Part shown: positions 23,626 through 30,660 of the stretch, one piece after another
How the letters are laid out: every line of letters begins with the position of its first letter
Numbering within the stretch: the first letter of the stretch is position 1
Source: Variovorax terrae
GTDB lineage: Bacteria > Pseudomonadota > Gammaproteobacteria > Burkholderiales > Burkholderiaceae_C
Direction of reading: 5' to 3'
DNA: 64,000 nucleotides
NCBI RefSeq assembly: GCF_022809125.1
Contig: NZ_JALGBI010000002.1
Coordinates: 505,685-569,684 of the forward strand
Made by a program: the position numbers and the translations under genes
The notes under the pieces: model-generated
Database searches by the model: none
Told to the model about the DNA's origin: nothing
The model's input: only the letters and a program-made list of their open reading frames with translations

Positions 23626-24177
23626 TTACCTCGGGCCAGCCAGCACGCTCAGCGAGGTCTTGTCGAGGGTGTTCTGCCAGAGAAGGAAGCCCACGAGCGC
23701 GGGCGTCGCCGCCTTGTCGACAGGCAACTTGTCCACCTTCAAGGCGTGCACGGTGTACACGTAGGTATGTTGGCGGCCGACAGGCGGGCAGGGACCGAGA
23801 TAGCCCGGTTTGCCGAGGTCTGTGTGGCCTTCCACGGCGCCGCTGGGCAGCGGGCCGCCATTGACGCCGCCGGCCAGGGCGCGGGTATCCGCCGGAATGT
23901 CGTAGACGACCCAGTGCCAGAAGCCGCTGCCGGTGGGCGCGTCCTTGTCGTAGAAGGTCACTGCAAAGCTCCTGGTGTCGGCCGGCGCGCCCTGCCAGGC
24001 CAGGTCGGGCATGACGTTGCCGCCGCTGCAGCCGAAGTTGTTCCAGTAGTGCGCGGCGCCGATCGCGCCGCCTTGCTGGATGGCCCGGCTGCCCAGCTCG
24101 AAGTCGGCGGCGTGGGCGGTGCGGGAAGCCATCGCGAACGCGAGGGAGGCGAGGGCCAGGGCGGTGATTGTCTTCAT
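23626..24177 (-). CDS. YbhB/YbcL (Raf kinase inhibitor-like) periplasmic protein
   Basis: A 183-residue PEBP-family protein with a signal peptide (MKTITALALASLAF...TAHA). The start at 24177 is chosen because it opens the signal peptide; the frame extends 36 codons further upstream. PEBP features include GGNVMPDLAWQGAPADTRSF, FYDKDAPTGSGFWHWVVYDI and GYLGPCPPVGRQHTYVYTVH. It lies 49 bp after the quinone oxidoreductase gene on the same strand and may belong to that LysR-controlled transcript. The ligand is unknown. Confidence 0.88.
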   Translation of the reverse strand: MKTITALALASLAFAMASRTAHAADFELGSRAIQQGGAIGAAHYWNNFGCSGGNVMPDLAWQGAPADTRSFAVTFYDKDAPTGSGFWHWVVYDIPADTRALAGGVNGGPLPSGAVEGHTDLGKPGYLGPCPPVGRQHTYVYTVHALKVDKLPVDKAATPALVGFLLWQNTLDKTSLSVLAGPR

Positions 24178-24226: not shown

Positions 24227-25240
24227 TCACACGAAGCCGGCCAGCACGCACTTGCCGCGCGCCTGGCCCGATTCGATCCAGGCATGCGCCTGCCTGAGGT
24301 TCTTGGCGTTGATGCTGCCGAAGGATTGGCCGGCCGTGGTGCGCAGTTCGCCGCGGTCCACCAGCTGCGCCACCTCGTCCAGCAGGCGGCCCTGCTCCGC
24401 CAGGTCGGGCGTGCCGAACAGCGTGCGGGTGAACATCAGCTCCCAGTGCAGCGAGATGGACTTGCGCTTGAGCAGCGTGGCATCAAGCGACTGCGGGTCG
24501 TCGATCAGCGCGATCTGCCCCTGCGGCGCGGTGATGTCCACCAGGGCCGCGAAATGCCGGTCGGTTTCCGTCAGGCTGGCCACCTTGTCCACATAGGCCA
24601 GGCCCAGCTCCTCGATCTGGCGGCGCAGCGGCCGCGAATGGTCGATCACGTCGTGCGCGCCCATCTCCAGGCACCATTGCCGCGTCTCTTCGCGCGACGC
24701 CGTCGCGATCACGCGCAGCGAAGTGAGGCGCCGGGCGAGCTGGACCAGGATGGAGCCGACACCGCCGGCGCCGCCCAGCACCAGCAGCGTCTGGCCCTGC
24801 CCGCCGCCGCGGCCGACGCGCAGCCGGTCGAACAGCAGTTCCCATGCGGTAATGGCGGTGAGCGGAAGGGCGGCGGCCTCCGCGTCATCCAGCGTCGCGG
24901 GCGCGCGGCCGGCGATGCGTTCATCCACCGCATGCAGCTCGGCATTCGTGCCCGGCCGGTCGATGGCGCCGGCATAGAAGACGCGGTCGCCCGGCTTGAA
25001 GCGGGTGACGTGCGGCCCCACGGCCTCGACCAGACCGGCGGCGTCGAAACCCAGGATGCGCGGTTCACCGGCCGCGGGCTTGGCGCCACGCCGCAGCTTG
25101 GTGTCCACCGGGTTCACCGACACAGCTTGCACGCGCACCAGCAGGTCGAAGGGCCGCAGTGGCGGAATGGGAAGCTCGATGTCAACCAGCGAAGCTTCCT
25201 GGTCGATGGGGAGCGGTTCAAAGTAGCCAACAGCTTTCAT
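24227..25240 (-). CDS. Zinc-type alcohol dehydrogenase / quinone oxidoreductase family protein
   Basis: A 337-residue NADPH-dependent MDR-superfamily enzyme. It begins MKAVGYFEPLP and has the GroES-like domain (DLLVRVQAVSVNPVDTKLRRG near 33), the GFDAAGLVEAVGPHV region and the nucleotide motif LLVLGGAGGVGSILVQLARR near 147. The structural zinc lobe cysteines are missing, so it is of the zinc-free quinone-oxidoreductase type. A LysR-type operator lies 80 bp upstream of the start (25320-25340). It probably reduces quinones or enones. Confidence 0.87.
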   Translation of the reverse strand: MKAVGYFEPLPIDQEASLVDIELPIPPLRPFDLLVRVQAVSVNPVDTKLRRGAKPAAGEPRILGFDAAGLVEAVGPHVTRFKPGDRVFYAGAIDRPGTNAELHAVDERIAGRAPATLDDAEAAALPLTAITAWELLFDRLRVGRGGGQGQTLLVLGGAGGVGSILVQLARRLTSLRVIATASREETRQWCLEMGAHDVIDHSRPLRRQIEELGLAYVDKVASLTETDRHFAALVDITAPQGQIALIDDPQSLDATLLKRKSISLHWELMFTRTLFGTPDLAEQGRLLDEVAQLVDRGELRTTAGQSFGSINAKNLRQAHAWIESGQARGKCVLAGFV

Positions 25241-25311
25241 GACAGTGCGAGGAAATGGAGAGAACTGCACTGTCGGCTATCTGGGCCGGTTTGATAAGCC
25301 AGGTGGTTGCG

Positions 25312-25340
25312 CTAACAAATTCAATCGCCCATTGAAAATC
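25312..25340 (-). promoter_or_regulatory. Predicted LysR-type operator, site 1
   Basis: On the minus strand GATTTTCAA-N7-TTGAA is followed by two bases and TGTTAGC. TTCAA and TTGAA are inverted at 25320-25324 and 25332-25336. It lies 80 bp upstream of the quinone oxidoreductase start. The nine-base GATTTTCAA block is identical in sites 2 and 3. Confidence 0.75.
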
Positions 25341-25504
25341 CCCCAGAGCGGCCAACGGCTCAGGCACGCCGGGGGATCATGTTCGGTTCCACGAACGCCG
25401 ACGCCTGGTGGGCATCGCGCTCATGGCGCCGGGAGGGCCCAGGTGGGGCCGCGCCGCCCGCGTGAGCCAGGTGCGGCGTATGCGGCACAGGCGGCCCATG
25501 GATT

Positions 25505-26584
25505 TCACGGCCGCAGGGCGGCCGCGAGGTAGTCGTCCTGCGTGTTCTCGGCGACTCGGAACCACATCGAGCTTTCGTGGCGGAACTTGTCCCAGGAGGC
25601 GTGCAGGCCCTTGAATTCGGCGTTCCTGGCGGAGATCTCCGCGTTGATCGACTGCGCGGCCTTGAAGGCTTCGTCGAGCACGGCGCGCGGATAGGCGCGC
25701 AGCAGCGTGCCCCGGCCCACCAGGCGCTTGAGCGCCTCGGGGTTCTGGGTGTCGTACCTGGCCTGCAGCCACACGTGCGCCTCCATCGACGCGGCCTCGA
25801 TGGCGTGGCGGTGGCCGGCGGGCAGTGCGTCCAGCGCCTTCTGGTTCACGTAGAACGACAGCTGCGGGCTGCCGTCGAACCAGCCGGGGTAGTAGTAGTA
25901 CTTGGCCACCCGGAACAGACCGAGCTTCTCGTCGTCGTACGGCCCCACGAATTCGGCCGCGTCGATCGTGCCTTTCTCGATGGCGCCATAGGTCTCGCCG
26001 GCGGGGATGATCTGGGGAATGCCGCCCATCGCGGCCCAGACCTGCCCACCCAGGCCGCCGATGCGCATCTTGTTGCCCTTGATGTCGGCGGGCGTCTTGA
26101 TTTCCTTGCGGAACCAGCCGCCCATCTGCGCGCCGGTGTTGCCGCCCATGTAGTTGACGATGCCGTAGCCGGCGTAGAGCTTGCGCAGCAGCTCCATGCC
26201 TCCGCCGTGCATCAGCCAGGCGGTCTGGGCCCGCGAGTTCAGGCCGAAGGGCAGCGCGAAGTCGAAGGCGAGCGCGTCGTTCTTGCCGGTGTAGTAGTAG
26301 GAGGCGGTGTGGCCCATCTCCAGTGTGGCGTTGCTTACCGCGTCCATCACCTGCAGGCCGGGCACCAGTTCGCCCGCCGCATGGACGCTGATCTCGAAGG
26401 CGCCGCCCGTGAGTTCCTTGACGCGCCGGCCGAACAGCTCGGCCGCGCCGTAGATGGTGTCCAGCGACTTGGGAAAGCTGGAGGCCAGGCGCCAGCGCAC
26501 CCGGGCCTGGGCGTGGATGGCGGGTGCGGCAAGCACCGCAGGCGCCGCGAGCGCGGCGGCCTGCAGCAGTTTTCTTCTTTCCAT
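25505..26584 (-). CDS. TRAP transporter substrate-binding protein (DctP family)
   Basis: A 359-residue periplasmic receptor. The N-terminus MERRKLLQAAALAAPAV resembles a Tat signal (twin Arg) and ends AIHAQ. The mature protein has RWRLASSFPKSLDTIYGAAE, then MRIGGLGGQVWAAMGGIPQI and IEKGTIDAAEFVGPYDDEKL. The family binds carboxylate substrates such as 2-oxo or amino acids. It is the last gene of the operon starting at 28336. No DctQ or DctM membrane subunit is nearby, so it must borrow a permease or act otherwise. Confidence 0.9.
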   Translation of the reverse strand: MERRKLLQAAALAAPAVLAAPAIHAQARVRWRLASSFPKSLDTIYGAAELFGRRVKELTGGAFEISVHAAGELVPGLQVMDAVSNATLEMGHTASYYYTGKNDALAFDFALPFGLNSRAQTAWLMHGGGMELLRKLYAGYGIVNYMGGNTGAQMGGWFRKEIKTPADIKGNKMRIGGLGGQVWAAMGGIPQIIPAGETYGAIEKGTIDAAEFVGPYDDEKLGLFRVAKYYYYPGWFDGSPQLSFYVNQKALDALPAGHRHAIEAASMEAHVWLQARYDTQNPEALKRLVGRGTLLRAYPRAVLDEAFKAAQSINAEISARNAEFKGLHASWDKFRHESSMWFRVAENTQDDYLAAALRP

Positions 26585-26606
26585 GGGGTCTCCTCTTCGT
26601 TGTGGT

Positions 26607-27080
26607 TCATTCCAGGATCTCGGCCCAGAAGCCGAGCATCACGGGCACGTTCAGCGGCATCACCAGGTGCCCGAGGGCCGTACGCGCGTGCCGGCCACGC
26701 TCCGCGAACACCTCGTTGATCAGTTCGGAGCCGCCGTTGAGCACTTGCGGGATCTGCGAGAAACCCTCCACGCAGCCCACGTGGCCCTCGATGCGCAGCA
26801 CCCGCACGCGGCCCAGGTCGCCGTCCGCCGCGGCCTTGAGCTGCGCGATGCCGTTCAGCGCGCAGATGCGCGCGGCCCGGTAGCCCTGCTCCGTGTCCAG
26901 TGCCTCACCCAGCCGGCCCACATGGGCGAGGCTGCCGTTGACCCAGGGCAGCTGGAACGAGGTGGTGACGAGAGAGCCCACGCGCTGCCAGGGCTCGTAG
27001 GCGGCCACGGCGCCGGGGGCGGCGGGCACGGCCAGGCCGAGTGCGGCCAGGCGGGTTTCAGGCAAGTGGGTCCGGTTCAT
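26607..27080 (-). CDS. RidA family protein (second)
   Basis: A 157-residue YjgF/RidA-like protein, longer than the 129-residue RidA at 22609 and of a different subgroup. It has PAAPGAVAAYEPWQRVGSLV near 19, ARICALNGIAQLKAAADGDL near 70 and QVLNGGSELINEVFAERGRH near 111. The tail ALGHLVMPLNVPVMLGFWAE lacks the RidA-type Arg at the usual place (PLNVPV), so classical imine deaminase activity is doubtful. It sits between the OpuAC-like and TRAP receptor genes. Confidence 0.82.
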   Translation of the reverse strand: MNRTHLPETRLAALGLAVPAAPGAVAAYEPWQRVGSLVTTSFQLPWVNGSLAHVGRLGEALDTEQGYRAARICALNGIAQLKAAADGDLGRVRVLRIEGHVGCVEGFSQIPQVLNGGSELINEVFAERGRHARTALGHLVMPLNVPVMLGFWAEILE

Positions 27081-27092
27081 TTCAATACCTCT

Positions 27093-27884
27093 TCAATACG
27101 TTGCAAGACCTTGTGTTGTGCGCGCCAGCCAATGGGCCGCGGCTTCCTGCGGGCTGTGGCCCGCCACGCTGATCTGATGGTCCAGCGCGGCCACCGCGGC
27201 ATTGCCCAGGTGCAGGTGGCGCAACTGCTGCAACGTGGCCTCGGGGATCAGATGGGCCGCATCCCGCCGCATCACCAGGGTCGCCGCATCGCGGCCACGC
27301 AGCAGCCCGAGGGGCTCCGCGAGTTCCCGGATGGCATAGCGGTGATGCAGGTACTGCGGATGCCACAGCGGCACCACCGCCCAGCGCCCGTCCTGCCAGG
27401 CGCGCTCGAACGCACCGGTGCAGTCGGCCAGCGTGCCGTTGTGGAACTGGTAGCCCAGCTCGCTCAGGCTGTAGCGCTCCATGATTTCGCGCGAGAAGCG
27501 GCTGATGCCCGCGCCTGGCCCGATGCCCTGGATGCGCTTGTCCATGCGCGCGGCCACTTCCGGCTTCGCGAGATCGGCCACCTGGGCCACCAGTTCGCGC
27601 GGCACATAGCCGGGCACGCCCCAAATGGCGTAGGGCTCATACAGCACGCCGAGTTTCAGCAATTCAGGTTCGAGGGGGTCCACATAGACGCCGTGGCTGC
27701 CCGGCAGCCAGGCGGACACCACCATGTCCACCTCGCCGCGCGCCAGCATGGCGTACATGGCTTCGTGCGGCGCTTCACGCGTGAAGGTCTTGACGCCCGA
27801 GCGTTCGACGATGGCGCGCACGACGGCCGCGCTCGCGACGTGGAAAGACAGCGCGATCTGTCCAATGACCAGCTCCCGGGTCAT
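27093..27884 (-). CDS. OpuAC-like (glycine betaine-binding) domain protein without signal peptide
   Basis: A 263-residue protein with the OpuAC/ProX type-II binding fold: ELVIGQIALSFHVASAAVVR from residue 4, VDMVVSAWLPGSHGVYVDPL near 53 and a second lobe with GPGAGISRFSREIMERYSL. Trp residues suited to a betaine cage are present (SAWLPG, PLWHPQYLHH). Unusually it begins directly at the first beta strand and has no signal peptide or lipobox. Its ATG overlaps the VOC stop (ATGA), so the two are coupled. It could be a cytoplasmic ligand sensor or a quaternary-amine binding partner; no ABC permease is nearby. Confidence 0.78.
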   Translation of the reverse strand: MTRELVIGQIALSFHVASAAVVRAIVERSGVKTFTREAPHEAMYAMLARGEVDMVVSAWLPGSHGVYVDPLEPELLKLGVLYEPYAIWGVPGYVPRELVAQVADLAKPEVAARMDKRIQGIGPGAGISRFSREIMERYSLSELGYQFHNGTLADCTGAFERAWQDGRWAVVPLWHPQYLHHRYAIRELAEPLGLLRGRDAATLVMRRDAAHLIPEATLQQLRHLHLGNAAVAALDHQISVAGHSPQEAAAHWLARTTQGLATY

Positions 27885-28336
27885 TGCGCGTCCACGGCGA
27901 TGCCGGCCTCGTCCGAGTGCCAGCTGGAAGTTTCCGTGGCGTCGAAGATGAACTCGATGGTGAGCCGGCCCGGTGCGATCACGAAAACCTGATGCTCTTC
28001 GAGGGCGGGAACGGTTCGGGCGCGGTAGGCGCGTCCCTGTGTCTTTAGACGCTCCTCGAACGCCGGCAGGTCGGTGCAGCGCATCGCAATGTGGTCCACC
28101 ACCCCGGTGTCATCGCCCACTTGGCGATCACCGAGATACGCGGCCAGGCGCTCATCCGAGGGGTCGTGCGGCGCCAGGTGCACCACGGCTGTGCCACCCG
28201 AATACAACCAGTATCCGGGGAACTGGAACGGCGGCCGGGGCCCAACGGCAAAGCCGGCGACTTGCTCGAAGAATCGACGCGTCTCCTCCATCAGCGACGT
28301 GCGCAGGGTGAAGTGGTCGAGGCGCGTAACTCCCAT
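27881..28336 (-). CDS. VOC (glyoxalase/bleomycin resistance) family protein
   Basis: A 151-residue vicinal-oxygen-chelate protein and first gene of the operon ending at 25505. The two beta-alpha-beta-beta-beta modules start at RLDHFTLRTSLMEETRRFFE and VVDHIAMRCTDLPAFEERL. Candidate metal ligands are His8, His (VVHLAPHD) and the Glu in LTIEFIFD. It overlaps the next gene by 4 bp. The reaction cannot be assigned by eye: lyase, dioxygenase, epimerase and isomerase members all share this fold. A LysR-type operator lies 84 bp upstream. Confidence 0.84.
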   Translation of the reverse strand: MGVTRLDHFTLRTSLMEETRRFFEQVAGFAVGPRPPFQFPGYWLYSGGTAVVHLAPHDPSDERLAAYLGDRQVGDDTGVVDHIAMRCTDLPAFEERLKTQGRAYRARTVPALEEHQVFVIAPGRLTIEFIFDATETSSWHSDEAGIAVDAQ

Positions 28337-28411
28337 GGTGCTGCCTCAGTTCAAGATGTGACACGCTGCAGTCTAGGAGGCGCGATCCAGGCTAGTAAGG
28401 GGCCGGCGGAA

Positions 28412-28440
28412 CTAACACCTTCAAGCGGGAATTGAAAATC
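28412..28440 (-). promoter_or_regulatory. Predicted LysR-type operator, site 2 (divergent promoter)
   Basis: GATTTTCAA-N7-TTGAA with TGTTAGT on the minus strand; arms at 28420-28424 and 28432-28436. It lies 84 bp upstream of the VOC gene and about 41 bp upstream of the LysR start, so one site could serve operon control and autoregulation. Confidence 0.78.
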
Positions 28441-28480
28441 CAGGCTTGATATGCCGGCCCGGATCGCGCAGGATTCTCAA

Positions 28481-29392
28481 ATGAAGATTGAAAATGTCGC
28501 GGACCTGAGGGTCCTGGTGGAAACGGCGCGCAGAGGTTCGTTGACAGCGGCATCGCGCGAACTGGGGGTGACGCCGGCCGCTGCCAGCGCGATGCTGAAA
28601 CGGCTGGAAGCACTCCTGGGCGCGCGGCTCTTCGAGCGGTCAACGCGCGCGATGCGGCTCACCGTGGAAGGCCAGACCCTGCTGGACTACGCGAACCGCG
28701 CGCTGGAGCTGCTCGAGGAAGGAGAGGCACAGCTGCTGGATACCGGCGCTCGCCTGATCGGCACACTCCGCATCTCGGTGCCCTCGGATCTGGCCCGCAG
28801 TGTGCTGCTGCCCTGGTTCGACGAATTCCTTGCACTGAATCCCGGCGTGCAGATCAGCTTGTCGGTCAGCGACCGGCTGGCCGACGTGATGCGCGATTCC
28901 ATGGATCTGGCGCTGCGCTATGGCGACTTGGTGGATTCGCGGCTGGTGGCCCGGCCGCTCGCGTCTACGCGCAGGGTGCTGTGTGCTTCGCCGGCCTACC
29001 TTGCGCGCCGCGGGGCGCCGCAAGCGCCGGAGGACCTCGTCAAGCACAACTGCCTGACGTTCCACCTGAACGGACGCCGCTACGTCTCCTGGCGGTTCGA
29101 GCGTGGCGGGGAATGGACCGAGGTGCGCATCAGCGGGGACCGGGGCGCCGACGACGCGGCGCTCGCGCACCAATGGGCGCTTGCCGGCGTGGGCCTTACC
29201 TACAAGTCAGAGCTGGATCTGGTTCATGACCTGGCGAGCGGAGCGCTGGTGCGCTTGCTGCCGGAGTGGGACGGCGAGCACTATCCGCTGAACGCCATTC
29301 TTCCCAGCAACCGTTTTTTGCCCGCGCGCGTGCGCGCCATGGTGGACTTCCTGGCCGCCAAGTTCGAGGAACTGGCGGCCCGCAGGGCTTAG
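28481..29392 (+). CDS. LysR-family transcriptional regulator (predicted regulator of the 23.6-30.6 kb block)
   Basis: A 303-residue LTTR. The winged HTH starts at once from the ATG at 28481 (ADLRVLVETARRGSLTAASR, SAMLKRLEALLGARLFERST), so this start is preferred to the ATG 30 bases upstream. The effector domain has TLRISVPSDLARSVLLPWFD and MDLALRYGDLVDSRLVARPL, typical of the subfamily controlling oxidoreductase and stress genes. It is divergent from the VOC operon. Its stop overlaps the stop of the convergent royal-jelly-like gene (TTAG at 29389-29392). Confidence 0.93.
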   Translation: MKIENVADLRVLVETARRGSLTAASRELGVTPAAASAMLKRLEALLGARLFERSTRAMRLTVEGQTLLDYANRALELLEEGEAQLLDTGARLIGTLRISVPSDLARSVLLPWFDEFLALNPGVQISLSVSDRLADVMRDSMDLALRYGDLVDSRLVARPLASTRRVLCASPAYLARRGAPQAPEDLVKHNCLTFHLNGRRYVSWRFERGGEWTEVRISGDRGADDAALAHQWALAGVGLTYKSELDLVHDLASGALVRLLPEWDGEHYPLNAILPSNRFLPARVRAMVDFLAAKFEELAARRA

Positions 29393-30561
29393 AAGCCAGG
29401 CATCCCGGGCGCGAGCGGCTTGAAGCGGTAGACCAGGTAGGGTGCCTTGTTCCTGGCGACTCCATCGGCTTGCAGGACGTTGGTCAGCGGCAACTGCGCG
29501 GCGCCGGTGTACATGTAGCCGTCCTTGTTGAAGGTCACGCCGTCAGGCCACACCATGCCGGGATCGGTGACGAGGCGGCGGTATGTGCGCGTGCCGGGCG
29601 GGATCACCCCCACGGCGCGCTCGCCAACCTCCGTCAGGTACAGGTTGCCCGCGGAGTCGATGGACAGGCCGCCGTTGAACGGCTTGTCGGCATAGGTTTC
29701 GACACGCGACGCCAACTGCGCCTGGGTGAGTCCGCGGTTGAGCAGGTCTGCCATGCGCATCCGGTACATCTTGTAGCCTGAGAGCGGGGCGAAATACAGC
29801 CACTCGCTCTGGTGGTCCAAGGCGATGCCATCGACGCCGATGCTCAGCTTGAAAGAACCAGCCGTGGGCGTGCCGACGTCCCAGCGGATGGGGTCGGCCA
29901 CGGGTTTCATGCTCTCGTGGCCTTGCAGCAGCCGCCGGCTGCTGCCGTCCTTCAGGCTCACCAAAACCAGCGCCGCCTTGTCGCCCACGCCATTGGAGTT
30001 CTCGCCGATCGCCTCGTCGGCAATGACGATGACCTGGTTCTTGAGATCGACCACGAAGTCGTTGTGCTGCGACTCGGTGATGGTGGCCGCCGGGTCCAGC
30101 TTGATGATGCGTTCGAGCTTGTTGGTCTTCGTGTTCCAGCCCACCAGCTTGGGCACCAGGCCGGCGGGCCGGCCGGCCGCCTTGTCGGTGGTTTTTGCCG
30201 AGTCCAGCAGCCACAGGATGCCGTTGGCGTCCGTGTGCAGGCCCAGTACCCAGTCGAGGCAGTGGTCCAGGTCCGCTTTCCACTGGCCGTCGGCGGTCTT
30301 GCAGCTTTGCCATTCCAGGTTCGGGTAGGGCGTGGTCGAGCGGCGGTCGGCGTTCAACAGAGCCACCTGCACCTTGGGTGAGTAGAAGGGGTGGTAGCCG
30401 ATCACGACGCGGCCATCGGGCATCTGCGTGATGCCTCCGACGCCGCCTTCCTGGAGCTGGGCATAGACCTCCGGCGAGGCCTTTTCCGCCTGGGCCGAGG
30501 CGCTGCCGGCGAATGCGGTTGCAAGTGCGAGTGCTGCGAGCACGGAAATGGTGGGTTGCAT
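29389..30561 (-). CDS. SMP-30 / major royal jelly protein-like periplasmic beta-propeller
   Basis: A 390-residue secreted protein with a signal peptide (MQPTISVLAALALATAFAGS...SAQA). Major royal jelly/gluconolactonase-type propeller blades are visible: GGITQMPDGRVVIGYHPF, ILWLLDSAKTTDKAAGRP, HNDFVVDLKNQVIVIADEAI, GVDGIALDHQSEWLYFAPLS and PDGVTFNKDGYMYTGAAQLP. Family members include lactonases, but many are uncharacterised. A LysR-type operator lies 79 bp upstream. It converges on the LysR gene with stop codons overlapping by two bases. Confidence 0.85.
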   Translation of the reverse strand: MQPTISVLAALALATAFAGSASAQAEKASPEVYAQLQEGGVGGITQMPDGRVVIGYHPFYSPKVQVALLNADRRSTTPYPNLEWQSCKTADGQWKADLDHCLDWVLGLHTDANGILWLLDSAKTTDKAAGRPAGLVPKLVGWNTKTNKLERIIKLDPAATITESQHNDFVVDLKNQVIVIADEAIGENSNGVGDKAALVLVSLKDGSSRRLLQGHESMKPVADPIRWDVGTPTAGSFKLSIGVDGIALDHQSEWLYFAPLSGYKMYRMRMADLLNRGLTQAQLASRVETYADKPFNGGLSIDSAGNLYLTEVGERAVGVIPPGTRTYRRLVTDPGMVWPDGVTFNKDGYMYTGAAQLPLTNVLQADGVARNKAPYLVYRFKPLAPGMPGF

Positions 30562-30631
30562 GGATGTCTCCTCGTTTGAGAGGCCCCCATGCTATGAAAC
30601 GCGAAGTCCCAGGACTACCCAGACCCATTGG

Positions 30632-30660
30632 CTATCAGTTTCAATTTGCCGTTGAAAATC
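30632..30660 (-). promoter_or_regulatory. Predicted LysR-type operator, site 3
   Basis: GATTTTCAA-N7-TTGAA with TGATAGC on the minus strand; arms at 30640-30644 and 30652-30656. It lies 79 bp upstream of the royal-jelly-like gene. Confidence 0.75.

Follow-up and report, generated by a model that had tools for sequence, protein, structure and literature searches.

A LysR operator that appears to double as the start of its own gene, with a lineage-specific local regulon in Variovorax terrae

LysR-type transcriptional regulators (LTTRs) with a divergent target classically bind a recognition site at about -65 and a second site near -35, and a T-N11-A box is usual for their sites. For AphB, the available part of the published account gives the site TGCAA-N7-TTGCA (PMC8911003). 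The acuR transcript of Rhodobacter is leaderless and begins exactly at the AUG, according to the portion of its report at hand (PMC3017554). C.Kpn2I, in the accessible part of its description, is an autoregulator that binds within the coding region of its own gene and blocks transcription there as an elongation roadblock, an in-gene position that its authors call unprecedented among C-proteins (PMC6237814). Here a LysR gene (lysR) and its putative operators are described in a stretch of 64,000 nucleotides of Variovorax terrae (assembly GCF_022809125.1, contig NZ_JALGBI010000002.1, positions 505,685 to 569,684, forward strand), referred to as the window. The operators neighbour a gene for an alcohol dehydrogenase-like protein (adh), an operon for VOC, OpuAC-like, RidA-like and TRAP solute-binding proteins (the VOC operon), and a gene for a major-royal-jelly-protein-like protein (MRJP). 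From sequence comparison, the regulator appears to be of a known kind; its local regulon would be specific to the lineage, and its operator seems to double as coding sequence.

Operators 1 to 3 (Table 1) match exactly, on the minus strand, the motif GATTTTCAA-N7-TTGAA-N2-TGWTAG, the core of which is the palindrome TTCAA-N7-TTGAA. A sequence-only reading of this DNA had singled out these three near-identical sites with their N7 spacer, and they were found exactly in place; no match at three or fewer mismatches occurs in 100 dinucleotide shuffles of the window. The distances of 79, 84 and 80 bp that it gave to the genes are right when taken from the ATG to the near core edge (30640-30561, 28420-28336 and 25320-25240), and so are the ~41 bp between the middle site and the divergent lysR with the start at 28481 (MKIEN), which is favoured by conservation. 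In the whole genome (4,934,485 bases) the 27-base pattern recovers the three window sites as exact matches and, as next best, one site with three mismatches (C1:3160756), so that no equally good site lies elsewhere; the reversed control pattern gives 0 matches in the same genome. A genome-wide regulon was considered and set aside: a short pattern with one mismatch gives six further places (seven rows) beyond the window sites, from which no targets are claimed; the reversed control gives 2 rows. Operator 4, with one core mismatch, was missed by the sequence-only reading; it was spotted by eye and is also present in the genome scan (G000:C2:534158-534178).

The relation between the site and the lysR start was followed in LysR relatives from named genomes, for which the best 80 of 110 confirmed loci were used, an adh-like gene being counted as adjacent when a tblastn match lay divergent from lysR with its inferred start within 300 bp. 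Such a gene is present in 72 of the 80 loci. TTCAA-N7-TTGAA is exact at the lysR start in 66 loci, and in 61 of these the ATG lies inside the site; 63 of the 66 have adh adjacent, two lack it and one is at a contig end. Taken by neighbour, the 72 adh-adjacent loci carry 63 exact cores, eight with one mismatch and one with two, and the five inexact start sites in loci without adh show 1, 2, 3, 4 and 4 core mismatches. In the orthologous loci L006-L009, TTCAA, the ATG with four bases, and TTGAA read as Met-(Lys/Gln)-(Ile/Phe)-Glu-Asn. The motif is thus kept where this LysR is kept, and the comparison with relatives gives good support to the earlier proposal of one local regulator acting through near-identical operators.

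A codon constraint coincides with the site. It was measured in 56 representatives of 108 lysR genes (sharing less than 88% nucleotide identity in their first 240 bases), which are related and so not independent; the lysR start of L112 was reset, since its tblastn match began at residue 28. Isoleucine at codon 3 is ATT in 44/45 representatives, against a share of 0.127 in the rest of the genes, glutamate at codon 4 is GAA in 52/54 (0.344), and asparagine at codon 5 is AAT in 53/56 (0.224). Outside the start site lysR genes prefer GC-ending codons; A/T-ending codons make up 12/53, 16/56 and 12/56 at positions 6 to 8, and codon 2, which belongs to the spacer, is mixed (38/56). Within the same loci, A/T-ending codons 3 to 5 are found in 37/37, 35/37 and 35/37 lysR genes versus 5/36, 13/36 and 14/36 adh genes.

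The start codon does not always sit in the site. It is gone from it in a clade of six loci, five with an exact site (L094, L103, L107, L108, L111) and one with a single mismatch (L110), all of which have, as read from the sequence, an in-frame ATG 15 bp upstream, and the site would then fall wholly within the gene. On a Comamonas plasmid a LysR 45% identical stands beside a 63% adh; the distance of the exact core is 86 bp to adh and 87-103 bp to the annotated start of lysR, which it precedes. Such a position, near adh and off the lysR start, would be predicted for a site anchored to the adh promoter. Two Sorangium loci contain lysR and MRJP, and within 17 kb no match to adh was found; their lysR encodes I-E-N or I-E-S at codons 3-5, written ATC GAG AAC or ATC GAG AGC, and the start site is lost. 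Plasmid 1 of Polaromonas JS666 (L183, 6005-7832) encodes a LysR 73% identical with a one-mismatch start site and no adh match in 13 kb; its MRJP is a C-terminal remnant only, adjoining an IS5-family transposase gene. In five loci without adjacent adh a different gene is divergent from lysR (L091, L098, L100, L105, L106), HbpS-like in all three examined (L091, L098, L106), and the start site beside these partners is exact in L098 and L106 and decayed in L091, L100 and L105. We lean towards the view that the LysR operator constitutes the regulator's own start codon and first codons and would be kept by selection at the DNA level in Burkholderiales and a few lineages beyond, with a start codon that may shift upstream of, onto or downstream of a fixed operator; lineages such as that of the window would have escaped through copies at new promoters, the coding copy decaying.

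The three window promoters share nearly the same geometry: the dyad lies 88 bp (adh), 92 bp (VOC) and 87 bp (MRJP) from the ATG, and 65-66 bp from the predicted transcription start at all three promoters. For the 72 adh-adjacent loci the distance between dyad and inferred adh ATG is 85-168 bp, with a median of 91 and with 54/72 loci in the range 80-100 bp. An alignment of 38 regulatory regions on the divergent side of lysR, adh regions in at least 35 cases, shows the site, then a conserved CTTATCAA and then a weaker TACAGT. On the lysR strand the count was made in the 36 of the 56 representatives with an ATG start and at most one core mismatch: TTGATAA precedes the ATG by 33-34 bp in 30/36, and complementarity to the Shine-Dalgarno sequence is limited to 3 nt or fewer in 36/36 lysR genes of relatives, with 4 nt or more in 34/37 adh genes. 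The lack of a Shine-Dalgarno sequence, together with TTGATAA at this distance, suggests that lysR of the relatives is probably transcribed as a leaderless mRNA, from a promoter whose -35 element would be the opposite strand of the adh -35.

These features are probably best explained as a whole by a LysR operator placed over the start of its own gene, copied to the VOC and MRJP promoters and serving a ligand-dependent switch. The protein would bind TTCAA-N7-TTGAA, extended to GATTTTCAA-N7-TTGAA-NN-TGWTAG, as a recognition site centred ~65 bp upstream of the target transcription start, the adjoining -35 region would be its probable second contact, and ligand-bound LysR would switch the target on. 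In most relatives one site would serve two genes, as it would precede the adh start by ~65 bp and coincide exactly with the lysR start, and since the same DNA is both operator and first lysR codons, bound LysR would block its own synthesis. In the window, adh, which is separate from lysR, would have kept its operator, further copies would control the VOC-OpuAC-RidA-TRAP operon and MRJP, and the copy at the lysR start would have decayed, with that at 28412-28440 standing just upstream of the lysR start. As to the ligand, a reactive carbonyl or a quinone is a guess taken only from the annotations of adh, VOC and RidA. The locus would thereby offer a clear natural case in which one sequence appears to serve both as the site of a transcription factor and as the coding start of the gene for that factor. 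It suggests a route by which a one-target LysR switch may become a local regulon, through operator copying with promoter geometry preserved, and, for a LysR group that is frequent among Variovorax and its relatives, it allows a binding motif and a regulon to be predicted.

A distance of 3.2 kb separates adh from lysR in the window, where adh retains its operator and CTTATCAA; at the lysR start TTGATA is retained together with the one-mismatch site. The window LysR groups with those of Sorangium (99/75) in a tree that is used cautiously, as it has 19 open forks and long paralogue branches (L112 was left out for coverage). The set of targets did not stand as the sequence-only reading framed it: the conserved pairing is that of lysR with adh, three relatives have degraded forms of the MRJP site, and the VOC-OpuAC-RidA-TRAP operon appears to be specific to the lineage. 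Homologues of the OpuAC-like protein (E<=1e-60) occur in 2/200 family genomes, that of the window among them, and the second one (61%, in G022) adjoins a different regulator, with no exact core nearby. This relative (L164, 5380-8264) is accompanied by cupin-like and RidA-like genes and an IclR-like regulator, the cupin and IclR assignments being made by eye. MRJP occurs in 3/200 family genomes, the window's own included, and the other two have no exact core nearby. A defined catabolic pathway was sought and none is assignable from these distributions; detoxification or catabolism, as suggested by the sequence-only reading, is a candidate function only.

The 399 family genomes scanned contain 34 sites, spread over 31 genomes, against 1 with the reversed control. 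Of these sites, 23 are at lysR starts next to adh, 3 are those of the window, 6 are just upstream of LysR genes 33-35% identical and 1 is without a query gene, the site of G324 being left out of this tally. A scan of 399 genomes drawn across the order yielded 14 sites, in 12 genomes, and 0 with the reversed control; 4 of the 14 are included in the family count above (the window three and that of G020). One of the other 10 is beside a 51% LysR and 9 have no query gene within 3 kb, so that the motif is no marker of this LysR beyond the family; the association of site and LysR belongs to a family-level group within the genome samples scanned. A few of the named LysR loci are from outside Burkholderiales. 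The LysR genes 33-35% identical (L130, L131, L132, L142, L143, L168) have the same kind of operator just upstream of their start, with a mostly more symmetric spacer (CCANNGG or similar), in frame in the four displayed. The 50% paralogue of the V. terrae genome (L163, 5062) begins CTTCA-ATGGAATTTGACAAT (MEFDN), like the start operator with a spacer one base shorter. L174, L175 and L176, from one genus of another family, share ATTTTCAAC-N6-TTGAATCTGTT and have no LysR of this group in their 3-kb loci.

Several observations weigh against a copied operator that covers the start of its own regulator. The exact operators beside an HbpS-like gene in L098 and L106 imply that adh is not the sole partner. 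The counterparts of the MRJP site are degraded (4 core mismatches in L035, where one half only is intact, 1 in L036 and 2 in L037), and the best candidates before the MRJP homologues of G122 and G213 have 3 and 5 core mismatches and were not counted as sites. The dyad of the degraded sites is nevertheless 86, 87 and 86 bp from the ATG in L035, L036 and L037, versus 87 in the window, and the whole MRJP promoters are partly alignable, which argues that the site was conserved and not independently gained. Regulation of the VOC operon is predicted from one genome, that of the window, and two other hexamer pairs tie in score at its promoter. The -35 and -10 elements match the consensus weakly, and a strict sigma-70 promoter scan of the region found none, so that these elements are predictions only. 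In the window, lysR is preceded by AGGA at Shine-Dalgarno distance. The second codon of adh ends in A/T in 36/36 loci, from which some preference for A/T in the start region, independent of the operator, follows. Finally, a different protein might bind the sites, given the 50% LysR paralogue in the same genome (C1:1803552) and the more distant LysR genes that have a site of this kind.

The codon bias might have another origin: ATT GAA AAT could result from selection on translation, if a gene translated weakly or from a leaderless mRNA is favoured by a start region that is A/T-rich and unstructured. The lysR genes of relatives lack a Shine-Dalgarno sequence, leaderless starts may need little structure, and the bias of adh codon 2 points the same way; but the same sequence stands at three window promoters away from start codons, its left half-site is outside the lysR gene, and codons 2 and 6-8 of lysR are not equally constrained. 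Moreover, the site is kept where the ATG is gone, and in the locus of the 45% LysR the exact core is 86 bp from adh and at least 87 bp before the annotated lysR start, which makes selection on translation alone very unlikely. The three sites could also be copies of one DNA segment moved by rearrangement and without function at VOC or MRJP. This is in keeping with the apparent lineage specificity of the VOC operon and with the CTAWCA that the sites share, the counterpart of which in relatives is just before the lysR ATG. It appears quite improbable, though, given that spacers and flanks differ among the copies, that the distance to the ATG is nearly constant (87-92 bp) and that degraded forms of the MRJP site exist in three further genomes.

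Binding by another LysR, for example the 50% paralogue, or by several paralogues sharing specificity, would account for the 6/34 family sites just upstream of LysR genes 33-35% identical, where specificity seems shared, and for the related, differently spaced start sequence of the own-genome paralogue. We hold it to be unlikely, because each of the three exact sites in the genome lies next to or near this LysR, and because most family sites accompany this LysR and adh (23/34).

The genes are listed in Table 1. LysR has an N-terminal HTH_1 domain (PF00126, 67 bits) and a C-terminal LysR substrate domain (PF03466, 141 bits), as in LTTRs, and reaches no equivalog cutoff among the 25 NCBIfam families listed, YafC, TtdR and AaeR included (best, YafC, 180 bits vs 470). 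The adh product scores 513 bits with TIGR02817 (curated cutoff 284) and has a solved relative in PDB 4dvj (E 1e-127). The YbhB-like gene is possibly co-transcribed with adh; its protein has no match above 80 bits among those listed for loci L035-L114. A PDB search gave no solved relative of the VOC protein at E 0.01. The OpuAC-like protein has, by eye, no obvious signal peptide, and the operon contains no ABC permease or ATPase gene. The TRAP receptor has a solved relative in PDB 7ug8, a ketoacid-binding protein (E 2e-99), and its operon is without TRAP permease genes.

Table 1. Operators, genes and predicted promoter elements of the lysR region (window positions)
Feature	Position	Strand	Remarks
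Operator 1	25312-25340, core 25320-25336	minus	adh promoter; exact motif match
Operator 2	28412-28440, core 28420-28436	minus	between VOC operon and lysR; exact match
Operator 3	30632-30660, core 30640-30656	minus	MRJP promoter; exact match
Operator 4, decayed, CTCAA-ATGAAGA-TTGAA	28476-28492	plus	over lysR start codon and codons 2-4
lysR, presumed regulator	28481-29392	plus	HTH_1 and LysR_substrate domains; start MKIEN (not 28451) by conservation
adh, zinc-binding alcohol dehydrogenase family / quinone-oxidoreductase-like	24227-25240	minus	TIGR02817
YbhB-like protein	23626-24177	minus	PF01161; 50 bp downstream of adh
VOC/glyoxalase-like protein	27881-28336	minus	PF13468 E 1e-4, 22.8 bits, under curated cutoff 25.1
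OpuAC-like solute-binding domain protein	27093-27884	minus	PF04069 151.5 bits
RidA/YjgF-like protein	26607-27080	minus	PF14588 99 bits
TRAP solute-binding protein (DctP)	25505-26584	minus	PF03480 187 bits
MRJP, major-royal-jelly-protein-like protein	29389-30561	minus	PF03022 53.6 bits; PDB 2qe8 E 1e-63
Predicted adh -35, TTATCA	25292-25297	minus	part of conserved CTTATCAA; 31 bp from dyad
Predicted adh -10, GACAGT	25269-25274	minus	17-bp spacer; weak consensus TACAGT in relatives
Predicted VOC -35, TTACTA	28393-28398	minus	30 bp from dyad, 17-bp spacer
Predicted VOC -10, TAGACT	28370-28375	minus	hexamer-pair prediction
Predicted MRJP -35, TAGTCC	30612-30617	minus	poor match; 31 bp from dyad, 17-bp spacer
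Predicted MRJP -10, TAGCAT	30589-30594	minus	hexamer-pair prediction
Candidate lysR -35, TTGATA	28446-28451	plus	35 bp before ATG; position read from sequence

A literature search, mostly at title and abstract level and with thin coverage of subscription journals, returned no paper recognisable as treating this regulator or a LysR operator over its own start codon. The protein is related in sequence to PDB 3hhg (E 2.5e-36), which we take to be CrgA of Neisseria, and to PDB 3szp/3t1b (E about 1e-28), presumably AphB. The acuI reductase belongs to the MDR superfamily. With the classical LTTRs that have a divergent target the system shares the domains, the divergent gene and the predicted site geometry; it differs from them in that the operator coincides with the start codon and first codons of the regulator gene, and in that the window has three promoters with an operator, plus a relic, in one locus. 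The T-N11-A box was discarded as a defining feature: the core gives T-N13-A and C-N11-G instead, and the AphB site departs likewise in the available part of its account (PMC8911003). That site, as described there, is like the present one in its 5-base inverted repeat and N7 spacer, and differs in the half-site (TGCAA vs TTCAA) and in the targets (PMC8911003). The AcuR/acuI system, from what the portion of the report at hand describes, resembles the probably leaderless lysR of the relatives in that a leaderless regulator gene without a Shine-Dalgarno sequence stands beside a reductase gene, with an operator overlapping the promoter, whereas AcuR is a TetR-family repressor in a same-strand operon with its operator upstream of the ATG (PMC3017554). 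C.Kpn2I, in the accessible part of its description, is a C-protein of a restriction system and not a LysR, but it shows what is predicted for lysR, autoregulation through a site in its own gene and overlapping divergent promoters (PMC6237814).

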